Assembly: GCA_016235555.1 (NCBI GenBank)
Contig: JACRKC010000074.1
Coordinates: forward strand, 1-64,000
Direction: 5' to 3'
DNA length: 64,000 nucleotides
Source: Verrucomicrobiota bacterium
GTDB taxonomy: Bacteria > Verrucomicrobiota > Verrucomicrobiia > Opitutales > Opitutaceae
Made by a program: the position numbers and the translations under genes. The notes beneath the pieces were generated by a model. The model saw only the letters and a program-made list of their open reading frames with translations. It ran no database searches and was not told the DNA's origin. Below are positions 32,838-62,106 of the stretch, one piece after another. Position 1 is the first letter of the stretch. The number at the start of each line of letters is the position of its first letter.

Positions 32838-34682
32838 TCAGGCGGTTTCCAACTCGCTCCAGCGGGCGTAGGCGGCGGCGACCTGGAGTTCGATCTCGCC
32901 CAGCCGTTGCGTCGCCCGCGCCACCTCGCTGCCACCGCGCCGGAAAAACTCGGCGTCGGCCAGTCTGGCGGTCAACTCCGCCTGCTCTTTTTCGAGGGCT
33001 TCGATCCGCGCCGGCAGCGCGTCGAGCTCGGCACGCTCCTTGTTGGTGAGTTTGCGCGGTTTGGCGAGGGAGGCCGGCGTGGCCCGAGTGTCCTGTCTGG
33101 CATTGCCCGACACGAGTCGGGAGACCCGAGCCAACTCCTTCTGCCAGTCATCATAGCCGCCGATGTATTCCGTCACGCGGCCCCCGCCCTCGAACACGAG
33201 CAGGCTCGTGCACACCTCGTTCAGAAACGCCCGGTCGTGGCTCACCAGCAGCAGCGTGCCGCCGAACTCCACGAGCAAATCCTCCAGCAACTCCAAGGTC
33301 TCGGCGTCGAGATCGTTGGTCGGCTCGTCGAGCACGAGCACGTTGCACGGCTTCGTGAAGAGCCGCGCCAGCAACAGCCGGTTGCGCTCGCCACCCGAGA
33401 GCGCGCGGATCGGCGTGCGGGCGCGCGCGGGCTCGAAGAGGAAATCCTCCAGGTAGGAAATCACGTGGCGCGTGCGGCCGTTGATCGTGACCGTGGCGTT
33501 GCCGTCGGCCACCGCATCCTGCACGCGCATCGTCTCGTCGAGCTGCGCGCGGAGTTGGTCGAAATACACGATCTCCAGCTTGGTGCCCTGCACGACGCGG
33601 CCCGCCGCCGGCGCGAGCTGGCCGAGCAGCAGCCGGAGCAGCGTGGTCTTGCCCGCGCCGTTCGGCCCCACGATGCCGATCTTGTCCCCGCGCTCGATGC
33701 GCACATCGAGGTCGCGCACGATCCAGCGGACCTCCTGCGGCGTAGCGGCCGACGTGAGGAGGCCGGCCTCGTCACCTCGGCCGCTACCAGATTCGTAGAA
33801 AAACCCCGCGCCCTCGCACGTGATCACCTTGAAGCCGCTGCGCTCCGCCTCCTGCGCGGTCATCTTCGCGGTGCCCGTGCGGTCGCGGCGGGCGATGCGC
33901 TCCGCGCGCATTTTTTCAAGGGCATGGATGCGGTTGTTGGCGCGCGAACGCTGCGCCTTCACCCCGCGGCGGATCCACTCCTCCTCCTGCGCGAGCTTCT
34001 TGTCGAATTGCGCCCGCTCCACCTCCTCGGCTTCGAGCACCGCCTGCTTGCGCACGAGAAACGTGTCGTAGTCGCACGCCCAGCCGACCAGACGGCCGCG
34101 GTCCACTTCGACGATCCGCGTGGAAAGCTTGCGCAGAAACGCACGGTCGTGCGTCACGAACAGCAGCGCCCCGCCCCACTGCAACAGGTATTCCTCCAGC
34201 CACTGGATCGAGGCGAGATCGAGATGGTTCGTCGGCTCGTCGAGCAGCAGCAGTTGCGGCGCCTCGACGAGCCCACGCGCGAGCAGCACGCGGCGCTTCT
34301 GCCCCGCCGAGAGCGCGGCGAACTCATGCTCCGCCGGCAGCCCCATGTCCTCGATCAGCCGCTCCACCCGGTCGTGCCGTTCCCAGTCGTTGTGCTCCTC
34401 GTAGGCCCCGCCCTCGCCTTCGATCACCGCCCGCACCGTGCCCGCGAGGCCGGCCGGCACCTCCTGGCGGAGCGTCGCAAACACGGCGCCCGCCTGGCGG
34501 AAAACCTGGCCGCCATCCGGCGTGAGTTCGCCCGCGATCACTTTCATGAGCGTCGATTTGCCCGCGCCGTTGCGCCCCACGAGGCACACGCGCTCGCCGC
34601 GGTCGATCTGGAGATTGACGCGATCGAGCAGCGGCGGACCGCCGAAGCTCAGGCTGACATCGAGGAGACTGACGAGGGCCAT
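32838..34682 (-). CDS. uup: ABC-F ATPase Uup
   Basis: The product has 614 residues with two ABC domains joined by a linker, no membrane segments, and a C-terminal coiled coil (~550-614), as in Uup of the ABC-F class that acts on ribosomes and DNA-repair structures. Walker A motifs are GRNGAGKST (~37) and GPNGAGKTT (~344). Signature motifs are LSAGQKRR and LSGGERNR, and Walker B motifs LLLLDEPTNHLD and VLVLDEPTNDLD. Residues ~299-314 (GSGRGDEAGLLTSAAT) are encoded by a REPIN-like palindrome at 33742-33787 inserted in frame just before the second ABC domain. Confidence 0.93.
   Translation of the reverse strand: MALVSLLDVSLSFGGPPLLDRVNLQIDRGERVCLVGRNGAGKSTLMKVIAGELTPDGGQVFRQAGAVFATLRQEVPAGLAGTVRAVIEGEGGAYEEHNDWERHDRVERLIEDMGLPAEHEFAALSAGQKRRVLLARGLVEAPQLLLLDEPTNHLDLASIQWLEEYLLQWGGALLFVTHDRAFLRKLSTRIVEVDRGRLVGWACDYDTFLVRKQAVLEAEEVERAQFDKKLAQEEEWIRRGVKAQRSRANNRIHALEKMRAERIARRDRTGTAKMTAQEAERSGFKVITCEGAGFFYESGSGRGDEAGLLTSAATPQEVRWIVRDLDVRIERGDKIGIVGPNGAGKTTLLRLLLGQLAPAAGRVVQGTKLEIVYFDQLRAQLDETMRVQDAVADGNATVTINGRTRHVISYLEDFLFEPARARTPIRALSGGERNRLLLARLFTKPCNVLVLDEPTNDLDAETLELLEDLLVEFGGTLLLVSHDRAFLNEVCTSLLVFEGGGRVTEYIGGYDDWQKELARVSRLVSGNARQDTRATPASLAKPRKLTNKERAELDALPARIEALEKEQAELTARLADAEFFRRGGSEVARATQRLGEIELQVAAAYARWSELETA
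33742..33787. repeat. REPIN-like element inside uup, GTAGCGGCCGACGTG family (copy 1)
   Basis: On the plus strand it runs from GTAGCGGCCGACGTGAGGAG to CACCTCGGCCGCTAC, with a central GGCCGGCC. The family's other copy at 37330-37403 is intergenic and shares GTAGCGGCCGACGTGAGGAG exactly. Here it lies within uup and adds about 16 residues without breaking the frame. Confidence 0.85.
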
Positions 34683-37329: not shown

Positions 37330-37403
37330 GTAGCGGCCGACGTGAGGAGGCCGACGGAAGCTCAGGCGCGTGCACCAGCCTCGTTACCTTGCTCGGCTGC
37401 TAC
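37330..37403. repeat. REPIN-like element, GTAGCGGCCGACGTG family (copy 2)
   Basis: It starts with GTAGCGGCCGACGTGAGGAG and ends with CTTGCTCGGCTGCTAC. It is the intergenic relative of the copy found inside uup, with a longer interior (about 30 extra bases). Confidence 0.8.
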
Positions 37404-40798: not shown

Positions 40799-42571
40799 TT
40801 AAGGTTTTTGCTTCGCAAAAACCTTCTGGAACGCGGGCAGCGTCTCGCTCAGCACCGCCTGCATGCGCGCGAGCGCGGCGGCTTCGCCGTCGGCGGCATC
40901 GGTTTGCAGGAGCACGTAGGCCCAGCGGTCCGCCCGGGCATGCGCGACGCGGTTCCACGCGTCATGCACGAGGCGCTGCCAGTGCGTGGGCACGACGCCG
41001 TCGCTGCCCACAAACCAGTAGGCGACGAGTTGCGGCACGACCACGCGCCCACCGGGCTGACCCGCGACGGCGGGTGGTCGGTTCCGCCCCGGCGGGGCCA
41101 CTTCCCGCTGCACGCGCAGCACCGTCGCGGGAAACGCGGCGGCCGCGTGGCCGGGATACGCGAACGGCCGCGTCGCCGCCCCCGCGATCGTCCACCCCTG
41201 CCCGATCAGACAAAGTTCCGGCCGGTGGATCGACGAGCGGTCGCGACCGCTCAACACGATCGAGACCAGCACGCGTTTCGTCGGATCGCGGTGGTTGAAA
41301 TAGAGCTTGCGCGAGAAACCGGTGTCGGGCGGCAGGATGTCGCGCTCGGCCGGCGTGACTTTCTCGGGCCGGCCCGTCCACTCGATGCCGAGAAACGCGG
41401 GCAGTTCGACCGGATTTTCCCCGTCCGCCGCGAGCCGCACACCGGCCGCCCCGCGCGGCGGCAACGCCGCGAGCTGCCGCAGAAAAAAGACCTCCCCCAC
41501 CGCGATCGCCACCACCGCCGCCGCCACGACCCCGGCACGTTTGTCATCCATTAGATGACAATCATTCCCGCCCGCGCCACTGGTAAAACCGGCCGGTTTG
41601 TCATCTAATGGATGACAAACTTCCGGGGCGGATTCGGGGTGCCAGCGCGCCAGGGCGGCGACCGCAGCGAGCACGCCGCCCAGCACGATCACGAACACGC
41701 CGTAGCCCATGACCTCGTGCGCGCGGTCGCCCCAGACGGGACCGAGCCACTGGGCCGCAAAGACGATCGAGACGATGCGCGCGACGTTGCCGACGTAGAC
41801 GAGCGGGAAGCACAGCGCGAAAACGACGAGCCGGCGCGACCAGCTCCGGAAGTTCAGATAGCCGACGAGCAGCGCCAGCGCGGCGAGCGCGACGAGCGAA
41901 CGCACGCCGGAACACGCGGCGGCGACATCGTAGTGGTAGCGACCATCGGGCGCGAGGAGCTGTGTGCCGCTCTGCAAGACGTCGATGCCCGCGGCGTGCG
42001 CGAGGGTGGCGCTCGCCTGGATCACCCACACCCGCAGCCAGAAACCGACCGAGTCGAGCGCGCTGAACGGGATCGCAAAGACCAGGAAGCCCAGCGGAAA
42101 CACCGCCGCCCTCCCCCACCGCCGCCCGCCGCCGAGCCGCAGCACACCCCAGGCAAACACGAGCAGCCCGATGATCGAGACGCGCGCCTGCTGGGCCGCG
42201 AAGCCGAGCGCGTGGAGGGCGAGGCCGGCGGCCATGGCCGCGGCCGGCGGCCACGGCGACTGGAGGGTGGAGGGTGGAGCGCGGAGAGAGCCGGCCGGAG
42301 GAAGGAGACGCTCAACTTTCCGCAAATTCCGCCACAACAGCCACGCCGCCACCGCGACGATCAGCGGCCCGTGCTCGGTCTCCGCCCGCGGGTCGAACCA
42401 CTGCACGCCCCACCAGTAGAACAGCGATGCGCTCTTGATGTAGCCCAGCGTGGCGTTGCCCCAGAATTGAAACACTGCGGCACCCGCCAGCGCGCAGAGG
42501 ATGGCCGGCCACCAACCATGCGGAGTGCGGCTGGCGTTCGCCGTCGACGCGGTGGTGGGAACCTCGCTCAT
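40799..42571 (-). CDS. Exosortase fused to EpsI (DUF3485) domain
   Basis: The product has 590 residues from the ATG at 42571. The N-terminal ~310 residues form a polytopic exosortase with catalytic Cys in AAACSGVRSL (~219), Arg in GNVARIVS (~262) and His in AHEVMGYG (~281). These membrane transpeptidases cut PEP-CTERM-like sorting signals. The C-terminal ~220 residues after one further membrane segment are an EpsI/DUF3485 domain (HRPELCLIGQGW, YWFVGSDGVVPTHWQR). The two parts are often separate genes. Residues ~317-344 in the linker (CHPLDDK ... CHLMDDK) are encoded by a palindromic element. It heads a polysaccharide locus, as exosortases commonly do. Confidence 0.92.
   Translation of the reverse strand: MSEVPTTASTANASRTPHGWWPAILCALAGAAVFQFWGNATLGYIKSASLFYWWGVQWFDPRAETEHGPLIVAVAAWLLWRNLRKVERLLPPAGSLRAPPSTLQSPWPPAAAMAAGLALHALGFAAQQARVSIIGLLVFAWGVLRLGGGRRWGRAAVFPLGFLVFAIPFSALDSVGFWLRVWVIQASATLAHAAGIDVLQSGTQLLAPDGRYHYDVAAACSGVRSLVALAALALLVGYLNFRSWSRRLVVFALCFPLVYVGNVARIVSIVFAAQWLGPVWGDRAHEVMGYGVFVIVLGGVLAAVAALARWHPESAPEVCHPLDDKPAGFTSGAGGNDCHLMDDKRAGVVAAAVVAIAVGEVFFLRQLAALPPRGAAGVRLAADGENPVELPAFLGIEWTGRPEKVTPAERDILPPDTGFSRKLYFNHRDPTKRVLVSIVLSGRDRSSIHRPELCLIGQGWTIAGAATRPFAYPGHAAAAFPATVLRVQREVAPPGRNRPPAVAGQPGGRVVVPQLVAYWFVGSDGVVPTHWQRLVHDAWNRVAHARADRWAYVLLQTDAADGEAAALARMQAVLSETLPAFQKVFAKQKP
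41539..41620. repeat. Palindromic pair inside the exosortase linker
   Basis: The arms at 41539-41561 and 41598-41620 are perfect 23-base complements of each other. Each arm is also self-palindromic (GTTTGTCATC, five bases, GATGACAA[AC]). Because of this double symmetry both arms translate to similar peptides, CHPLDDK and CHLMDDK. It resembles the 9816-9840 palindrome in length and outer bases. Confidence 0.85.
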
Positions 42572-42590
42572 GCACACCCAGATCCGCGGC

Positions 42591-43496
42591 TCAGCCCGCC
42601 GGATCGATCCGCGGCTGGAGCATCGTATCCCGGGCACGCACGCCGTGCCCGCGCAGACCGTAGCGCGGCGGCTCGTAATGCGTGGCGGCGTCAAACGGCG
42701 CGAGGAACTGGTCGCCCACCAAATCCGCCCGGACAAAAAACGCATTGATCCCCGTGAAGTCGCAGCCGACGAGCGCGTAGCCCCGCGACCGCGCGAGCCG
42801 CTCGCAGGCGGAGAGACTCGCCCCGAAATCCCGGGAGCCATCCCACGGCGGCGCATCGACGGGCGTGACCCATTCGATCGGCGGACGAAACGTGGCGTTG
42901 TATTCCACCACCAGCACCCGCGGCCGCAGCGCCGGCAACGCCGCCCACACGTGGTAGGTGTGCTGGTCGATGTCGATTCCGAGGAAGTCGGGCTCGGTCG
43001 GCACGCCGGCTCCGGCCAGCAAGTCCGCCACCGTCGCGGGCGAGAGCATCTCGGCGCACAGCTGCAGCCGCCCGTCGGCGAGTTCGCCCGGGAACCGCCG
43101 TCGGATCCCGGCGACCGCCCGCGCGCTGCCTTCGCACCACCAGCCGCGCCAGCCGCTGTGCAGCAGCAGGCGCGTGTTGTTCTCCGCGCCGTCGCCCACG
43201 CCGATCTCGACGAACGTGCGGTTGGGCGCGCCGATCCGCCGGAAGGTCTCGGCGATCATGCCGTCCTCGTCGTTCTGCGAAAACGACTGGTAGCCCGCCG
43301 CGTGCAGGCGCCGCGGGTCGCCGTAGCGCGGATGGCGGCCGAGTGCCTCTTCGGCCGCGAGAAACCGGGCGGGCCGCAGCGCGTCGAGCGCCTCGTTCTG
43401 CCGGAGGACGAGTTCCCGCAACTGGCCGAGTTCCCGCACCACCGGCACCTGGCGGTAGAGCTTCTGGAGAACGGCGCTCAGTGACATGGCGGGCAA
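42591..43496 (-). CDS. FkbM-like methyltransferase-fold protein
   Basis: The product has 301 residues (an ATG at codon 4 is an equally good start). The first ~60 residues are helical; then comes a Rossmann-like core: FSQNDEDGMIAETFRRIG, TFVEIGVGDGAENNTRLLL (~92-110), EPDFLGIDIDQHTYHVWAAL (~165) and VEYNATF (~197). This resembles the uncharacterised FkbM-like proteins frequent in bacterial polysaccharide and glycosylation loci. A sugar O-methyltransferase role is plausible but unproven. It is 19 bases upstream of the exosortase gene in the same direction. Confidence 0.78.
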   Translation of the reverse strand: MPAMSLSAVLQKLYRQVPVVRELGQLRELVLRQNEALDALRPARFLAAEEALGRHPRYGDPRRLHAAGYQSFSQNDEDGMIAETFRRIGAPNRTFVEIGVGDGAENNTRLLLHSGWRGWWCEGSARAVAGIRRRFPGELADGRLQLCAEMLSPATVADLLAGAGVPTEPDFLGIDIDQHTYHVWAALPALRPRVLVVEYNATFRPPIEWVTPVDAPPWDGSRDFGASLSACERLARSRGYALVGCDFTGINAFFVRADLVGDQFLAPFDAATHYEPPRYGLRGHGVRARDTMLQPRIDPAG

Positions 43497-61985: not shown

Positions 61986-62014
61986 TGAATCTCACGTTCT
62001 CCAATCCGCCAAAG

Positions 62015-62093
62015 GTAGGGCCCGCTCTCCGAGCGGGCCTGGGCTGTGGTCACGCATACTGGAACTCAGGCCCGCTCGGAGAGCGGGCCCTAC
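62015..62093. repeat. REPIN-like element, GTAGGGCCCGCTC family
   Basis: The left unit is GTAGGGCCCGCTCTCCGAGC and the right unit its inverse ending GAGAGCGGGCCCTAC, separated by about 28 bases. Each unit is a hairpin with 8-9 base stem. It lies between the paired PSD1 and DUF1501 genes, about 14 bases before the second. Confidence 0.85.
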
Positions 62094-62106
62094 CACAAGG
62101 CGCGCC

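Follow-up and report, generated by a model that had tools for sequence, protein, structure and literature searches.

A palindrome within the linker of a fused exosortase-EpsI gene and its dispersed relatives in an Opitutaceae-like family

Classical GTAG REPs carry an unpaired tag and have RAYT partners, and REPINs consist of two inverted palindromic units, separated by a variable spacer and dispersed in the genome. The element described here, found in a Verrucomicrobiota bacterium, shares the latter architecture (two inverted units, variable spacer, dispersal). However, REPINs are described as tied to RAYT transposases (PMC3116915), and the present element is without such a tie in the loci examined.

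Intragenic palindromic repeats are already known in this bacterial group. In Opitutus terrae, likewise a member of the Verrucomicrobia, the GTAG REPs are short hairpins, often arranged as dimers and located in some cases inside ORFs (Di Nocera et al., 2013; PMC3733652). According to this survey the number of intragenic GTAG repeats is highest in O. terrae, over half of the intragenic inserts consist of dimers or groups and encode 20-30 residues, and CGTC REPs, including RPE-4 and RPE-6, also exist without a dedicated transposase (PMC3733652). By contrast, the present unit is AT-rich and symmetric, with neither the unpaired GTAG/CGTC tag nor a RAYT link, and the strings TTTGTCA and TGACAA are absent from the main text of that paper. 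The Rickettsia palindromic elements, as described in PMC10969869, are also palindromic and lie in frame in unrelated genes, where they encode a recurrent peptide. They are about 150 bp long and come from Rickettsia, whereas the present element is shorter and belongs to another phylum; the two are set apart here by description and not by sequence. A literature search returned no paper for the peptide string CHPLDDK and none for Opitutaceae combined with “repetitive extragenic palindromic.”

The palindrome and its host gene

The window, that is the whole stretch of 64,000 nt that was analyzed (contig JACRKC010000074.1), includes the following features:

41531-41628, no strand: whole extended inverted repeat, with 31-nt arms (41531-41561 and 41598-41628) that are 90% complementary
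41539-41561, no strand: arm 1, 23 nt, with the hairpin core TTGTCATC-CATTA-GATGACAA at 41541-41561
41562-41597, no strand: spacer, 36 nt; the family core is TTTTACCTCTGGG, the window copy TTTTACCAGTGGC on the minus strand (in frame: FTSG)
41598-41620, no strand: arm 2, exact reverse complement of arm 1, with the core TTGTCATC-TAATG-GATGACAA at 41598-41618
40799-42571, minus strand: host gene, encoding a fused exosortase-EpsI protein; start Met inferred from relatives (MSEVPTT)
41663-42430, minus strand: Exosortase_EpsH domain (PF09721), residues 143-398, 142.5 bits, over the cut-off
40826-41518, minus strand: EpsI-like domain (PF11984/DUF3485), residues 447-677, 55.5 bits, over the cut-off

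The sequence GTTTGTCATCCATTAGATGACAA at 41539-41561 is repeated as its exact reverse complement at 41598-41620. Folded alone, each arm is a hairpin (8-bp stem in arm 1, 10-bp stem in arm 2, both with a 5-nt loop), and together the arms form a long hairpin with a fold z of about -7.7 as DNA and as RNA. Thus the first-pass annotation, which had reported two perfect 23-nt inverted arms, each self-palindromic and read in frame as CHPLDDK...CHLMDDK, described a real palindrome. At up to three mismatches, TTGTCATCN5GATGACAA occurs twice in the window, compared with 0.08 expected for its composition. The 31-nt arms, 90% complementary, provide terminal inverted repeats of the kind found in MITEs, and 41531-41628 is probably the outer limit of the window element. 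Among known RNA families the best match was MIR834 (E 0.057; 20.9 bits against a cut-off of 200), rejected as the chance fit of a long hairpin. A search for carriage of the element by plasmids or phages gave no match.

The arms lie in the open minus-strand frame 40799-42856 (685 aa, opening at 42856), with CHPLDDK at residues 414-420 and CHLMDDK at residues 433-439, between the exosortase and EpsI/DUF3485 domains. Translation probably starts at Met 96 (42571), near the starts of the relatives. Counted from Met 96, the residues Cys 220, Arg 265, and His 285 are invariant in the alignment with relatives and are presumably catalytic. The window copy is counted as coding by domain homology; a coding heuristic had classed it as lying outside a gene because the second-position GC of the host ORF is unusual. 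The structure model of the protein (mean pLDDT 48.4, pTM 0.42), in which the element (model residues 319-344) is mostly coil at about 30-40, supports no conclusion. A further hairpin with a 10-bp stem, AGGTTTTTGCGAAGCAAAAACCT, is located at 40802-40824, in the last codons of the same gene just before the stop.

With both domains in one frame, the host protein is an exosortase-EpsI fusion. The XrtD model TIGR04152 spans both domains, and EpsI regions fused with EpsH were already described by Haft et al. (2006; PMC1569441); the domain order of these published fusions (PMC1569441; TIGR02914, XrtD TIGR04152) is that of the host protein. However, the host protein scores below the cut-offs of the named exosortase subfamilies, among them XrtD TIGR04152 (123.6 vs. 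400), and of the EpsI model TIGR02914 (37.3 vs. 42.8 bits), and it carries the in-frame repeat.

A dispersed family with genome-specific stems

The source genome (8.03 Mb in 140 contigs, 98.6% complete) contains 72 sites of TTGTCATCN5GATGACAA at no more than two mismatches, and the reversed-pattern control none; the unit is therefore present elsewhere in the genome, including between genes, which the earlier note had proposed to check. The 38 stretches fetched around listed sites and close variants, in which a few of the counted sites may be missing, hold together with the window at least 65 arms: 22 regular pairs, all with a spacing of 55-57 bp, and 21 further arms. In the alignment of the 22 pairs the arms are nearly invariant and the spacer is variable around the core TTTTACCTCTGGG; the bases flanking each arm covary weakly, chiefly in left arms and at no positions other than 1-2 and 6. 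With its inverted palindromic units at a fixed distance from each other and its numerous dispersed copies (22 pairs, 72 sites), the family has the arrangement of a REPIN or REP dimer.

The 22 aligned copies have no unpaired GTAG or CGTC tag at their arms, the bases directly before the stem being GT or GA. No arm lies at any of the ten Y1_Tnp loci of the source genome, and one does at the 24 Y1 loci of five other genomes (1/34 over all six). A Y1 profile search of genome G023 gave no match, despite its 27 arm sites. Mobilization by a RAYT is rejected on these counts, within the reach of the Y1 profile: the association with RAYT (Y1_Tnp) genes that belongs to GTAG REPs and REPINs was not found, and the Y1 loci of the six genomes yielded no mobilizing enzyme or autonomous partner.

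GTAG-type repeats also occur in the source genome, where the core of one family has 158 sites at no more than two mismatches (reversed control, 1). In the window this repeat, GTAGCGGCCGACGTGAGGAGGCCGGCC..., forms a near-perfect palindrome at 33742-33787, inside an ABC-F-like gene (32838-34682), and recurs at 37335-37352; the former corresponds to the second palindromic element of different sequence that had been noted in a protein linker within 8 kb. At 62014-62094 lies a GTAG-like inverted repeat, GGTAGGGCCCGCTCTCCGAGCGGGCCTG, whose perfect 28-nt arms are 25 nt apart. The Y1-transposase (RAYT-like) genes at L018, L020, L022, L023, and L025 are flanked by GTAG hairpins whose type often differs per locus, which points to several REP-RAYT systems in one genome. 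At eight loci (L026, L028, L032, L041, L045, L048, L051, and L060, near position 2001) a single TTGTCATC arm adjoins an arm of the GTAG-type repeat or sits between two of them (at most five mismatches, on at least one side), and the two families therefore form composites.

Of 200 family genomes, 35 contain the element. In the phylum sample the pattern TTGTCANCNATTAGNTGACAA occurs in 9 of 387 genomes, all among the 37 of this family, and in none of the 350 others. This restriction to the family, whose named relatives are Opitutae MAGs, holds within the sample searched. The stem types are compensated: the free stem pair is complementary in all 49 listed sites of the phylum sample, as T-A, C-G, or A-T. 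G023 has 27 sites, mostly of the TTGTCAAC type, and G159 has 36 sites of the TTGTCAC[T/G] type; each genome has the same type in its exosortase-EpsI linker. When the pattern leaves both inner pairs free, the first is complementary in 23/27 (G023), 36/36 (G159), and 39/39 (G153) sites and the second in 27/27, 25/36, and 31/39, respectively; against this trend, each pair is complementary in only one of the four listed sites of G031. The linker hairpin is the genome's own dispersed type in three genomes only (G000, G023, and G159). The G160 sample contains one linker-type site in 132 kb, and neither G115 (390 kb sampled) nor G127 (216 kb sampled) showed dispersed copies of its linker type. G000 and G023 have different arm types at the same codon position, both in a TMTC gene (L055, L191) and in a DUF5107/TPR gene (L062, L194).

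Copies within genes and the linker as landing pad

An arm has stops in two of its three frames on both strands, C-x-x-x-x-D-D being the sole translatable frame. Therefore, a genic copy would survive only in the C-x-x-x-x-D-K frame and with its arms in phase (57 bp). Eight pairs are in frame: those in the window gene, four TPR paralogs, an epimerase/3beta-HSD protein, an OmpR-type response regulator, in which the element sits between the two domains, and argS. The TPR hosts are presumably TMTC-like (Pfam shows TPR repeats only). The eight pairs share with the Rickettsia palindromic elements their in-frame position in unrelated genes, to which they add a recurrent peptide. The spacing is 57 bp in all eight coding pairs, compared with 5 of the 14 others (P=0.004), of which seven have 56 bp and two 55 bp; L052, a 589-aa open frame of atypical codon composition, is counted as non-coding here. 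This bias is partly mechanical: arms out of phase would disrupt the reading frame.

Empty sites are available for comparison. The argS gene, which has a single match in the source genome, carries the element in the ArgS loop before the DALR domain; as the only copy found of an essential gene, it evidently encodes an enzyme that works despite the insert. The 19 argS loci of relatives are without CHxxDDK and mostly show a gap of about 32 residues, although a few (L115, L120, L124) have unrelated extra length at this place. In L115, the argS of G001, a different insert occupies the loop that holds the element in the source genome. Among the TMTC paralogs of the source genome six are empty, with a constant short loop, and five have the element, one of them as a single arm. 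These genes belong to a large expansion of TMTC-like TPR membrane proteins (L129-L158; 53 stretches matching one member), in which the five elements are at one codon. At this codon the spacer of L037 is oriented opposite to those of L027, L035, and L055, which implies either that the copies were inserted separately or that the segment between the arms was inverted. The empty sites are not alignable to the base, and no target-site duplication of the MITE kind was resolved.

The 21-nt arm core is identical in all 16 arms of the eight coding pairs, synonymous sites included, and its codons are mostly AT-ending in host genes with a third-position GC of about 0.8-0.9. The 36-nt spacers of these pairs are 47% identical (58% among the six that share an orientation), compared with 48.5% for the flanks; the TMTC host proteins are only 40-50% identical to each other. 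Either new copies bring varied spacers, or existing arms are maintained or overwritten where they stand. That whole elements were copied recently is disfavored, because the arms are 16/16 identical while the spacers are scarcely above the flanks, and maintenance or homogenization of the arms in place is possible.

The exosortase-EpsI gene itself was followed through 200 family genomes, of which 80 matched; the loci of all 80 were fetched, and 74 hold both domains (six are partial). An AT-rich hairpin of the same build is present in the linker of 16 of the 74 genes, mostly just before the EpsI helix; eight are perfect stems of at least 8 bp and eight match only with mismatches, and five further “remnants” were judged by eye. 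Their stems differ yet stay paired: TTGTCAAC..GTTGACAA in G023, TTGTCACG..AGTGACAA with one mismatch in G159, TTTGTAACG..CGTTACAAA in G160, and GTTTGTAGTC..GACTACAAAC in G115, with the linker peptides CQLLVDK, CHVLSDK, CNVIRYK, and CSLLDYK, respectively. Perfect hairpins, a count that includes GC-rich ones of other kinds, number 21 in 8,254 bp of linker and 19 in the remaining 107,961 bp of the 74 genes (2.54 vs. 0.18 per kb, a 14-fold difference). In the tree of the 74 proteins the hairpin genes occupy several separate places and do not form one clade, with G000 and G023 as sisters. The tree is used for placement only, as its label-change count compares only 16 vs. 5 rows and is not below that of shuffles (500/500 as low). 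The linker is a landing pad for hairpins, and the repeat is probably a tolerated passenger.

A scan of an 84,980-species collection added five relatives (L074-L078), which are MAGs labelled Opitutae, Opitutaceae, or Verrucomicrobia. In all five the exosortase and EpsI domains are fused with no CHxxDDK in the linker (in L078 the N-terminal part is split over two frames), and most of the 74 two-domain family genes also have no such hairpin there. The Xrt-EpsI gene of L077 (JAUSID010000170.1) contains two loops with other in-frame repeats, one ETGDRKPDSLIP-like and one reading DRGLRIADFE...NPQSAIRNPQ; other kinds of repeat therefore also enter these loops.

Origin and maintenance of the element

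The window feature is probably a single member of a dispersed set of non-autonomous palindromic repeats in an Opitutaceae-like family, REP-dimer/REPIN-like or RPE-like, which insert and survive in frame in loops. The first-pass annotation considered it possible that the element helped to join two formerly separate genes, and the element does lie exactly between the two domains. Such a role is hardly credible, as all five named relatives and most of the 74 family genes have the fusion but not the element, fused EpsH-EpsI has been in print since 2006 (PMC1569441), and unfused genes such as argS hold the same repeat. Of the earlier interpretation, the discrete, dispersed element in a protein linker stands and the joining of genes does not. 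A motif selected at the protein level, in which CHxxDDK repeats bind a partner or a metal and codon choice incidentally produces the palindrome, would fit a Cys-His-Asp-rich peptide that occurs twice, but is very improbable: the peptide varies freely at the same place (CQLLVDK, CHVLSDK, CNIIRYK, CSLLDYK, CHHNGDK) while the hairpin is often kept, and the same arm DNA lies between genes and in unrelated proteins. Nor was CHxxDDK seen conserved on non-palindromic DNA in distant fusions, the observation that the first-pass annotation had named as refuting; related linker peptides are usually encoded by hairpin DNA, sometimes imperfect. Most likely, the peptide encoded by the element has no function. 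A conventional GTAG/RAYT REPIN, mobilized by a Y1 transposase of the genome, is suggested by the dimer architecture, by the ten Y1_Tnp loci, several flanked by GTAG repeats, and by the eight single-arm sites that adjoin the GTAG-type repeat. It is nevertheless unlikely, given arms without a GTAG or CGTC tag, the lack of an arm at all ten of the genome's own Y1 loci, and the 27 sites of G023, where no Y1 match was obtained.

The most serious competitor, a possible but less likely reading, is a resident of long standing: the hairpin would have arrived in the linker of an ancestor on one or a few occasions and been retained ever since, while its sequence either drifted through paired changes or was replaced by the arm type prevailing in the genome (concerted evolution); it might be functional in DNA or mRNA. 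A hairpin or by-eye remnant just before the EpsI helix in 6/6 g41 and 6/7 g21 genes with a complete linker agrees with this, as do the different arm types at the same codon in the TMTC (L055, L191) and DUF5107/TPR (L062, L194) genes of G000 and G023 and the invariance of the arms beside scrambled spacers. It is opposed by hairpin genes on several separate branches with empty neighbors (G065 and G025 beside G000 and G023), by copies of opposite orientation at the same TMTC site (L037), and by the GC-rich hairpins of other kinds that occupy the linker elsewhere.

Under the preferred reading, that of a mobile repeat tolerated in loops, the unit is a hairpin arm of 21-25 bp, TTGTCA-N-C-YATTA-G-N'-TGACAA, mostly in head-to-head pairs 55-57 bp apart in the source genome. 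It would spread through a hairpin-recognizing enzyme acting in trans, which is a candidate only. The arm offers the same open frame on both strands, with stops in two of three frames, and insertions out of frame would presumably be lost by selection. Surviving genic copies would sit in loops that tolerate about 26-32 extra residues, such as the linkers of the exosortase-EpsI protein and of the response regulator, a loop of the TMTC-like TPR membrane proteins, and the loop that precedes the DALR domain in ArgS; some of these sites are occupied in several species.

It is proposed tentatively, and as a doubtful reading, that a family of DNA hairpins is kept in concert in each genome, also within genes, with arms identical at synonymous sites, spacers drifting, species showing different base-paired versions at the same codon, and the protein changed to keep the hairpin. 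If true, such concerted maintenance would require a partner acting in trans, be it a hairpin-binding protein, a transposase other than a RAYT, or a conversion process, by which hairpins inside genes are overwritten or selected. The present element extends the palindromic insertion into proteins that is known in Rickettsia and O. terrae to a family of untagged hairpins without visible transposase. One linker, occupied in many genomes by different hairpins, constitutes a natural experiment, and the comparison of strains would make it testable how tagless REPs spread and whether intragenic REPs are maintained or merely tolerated.
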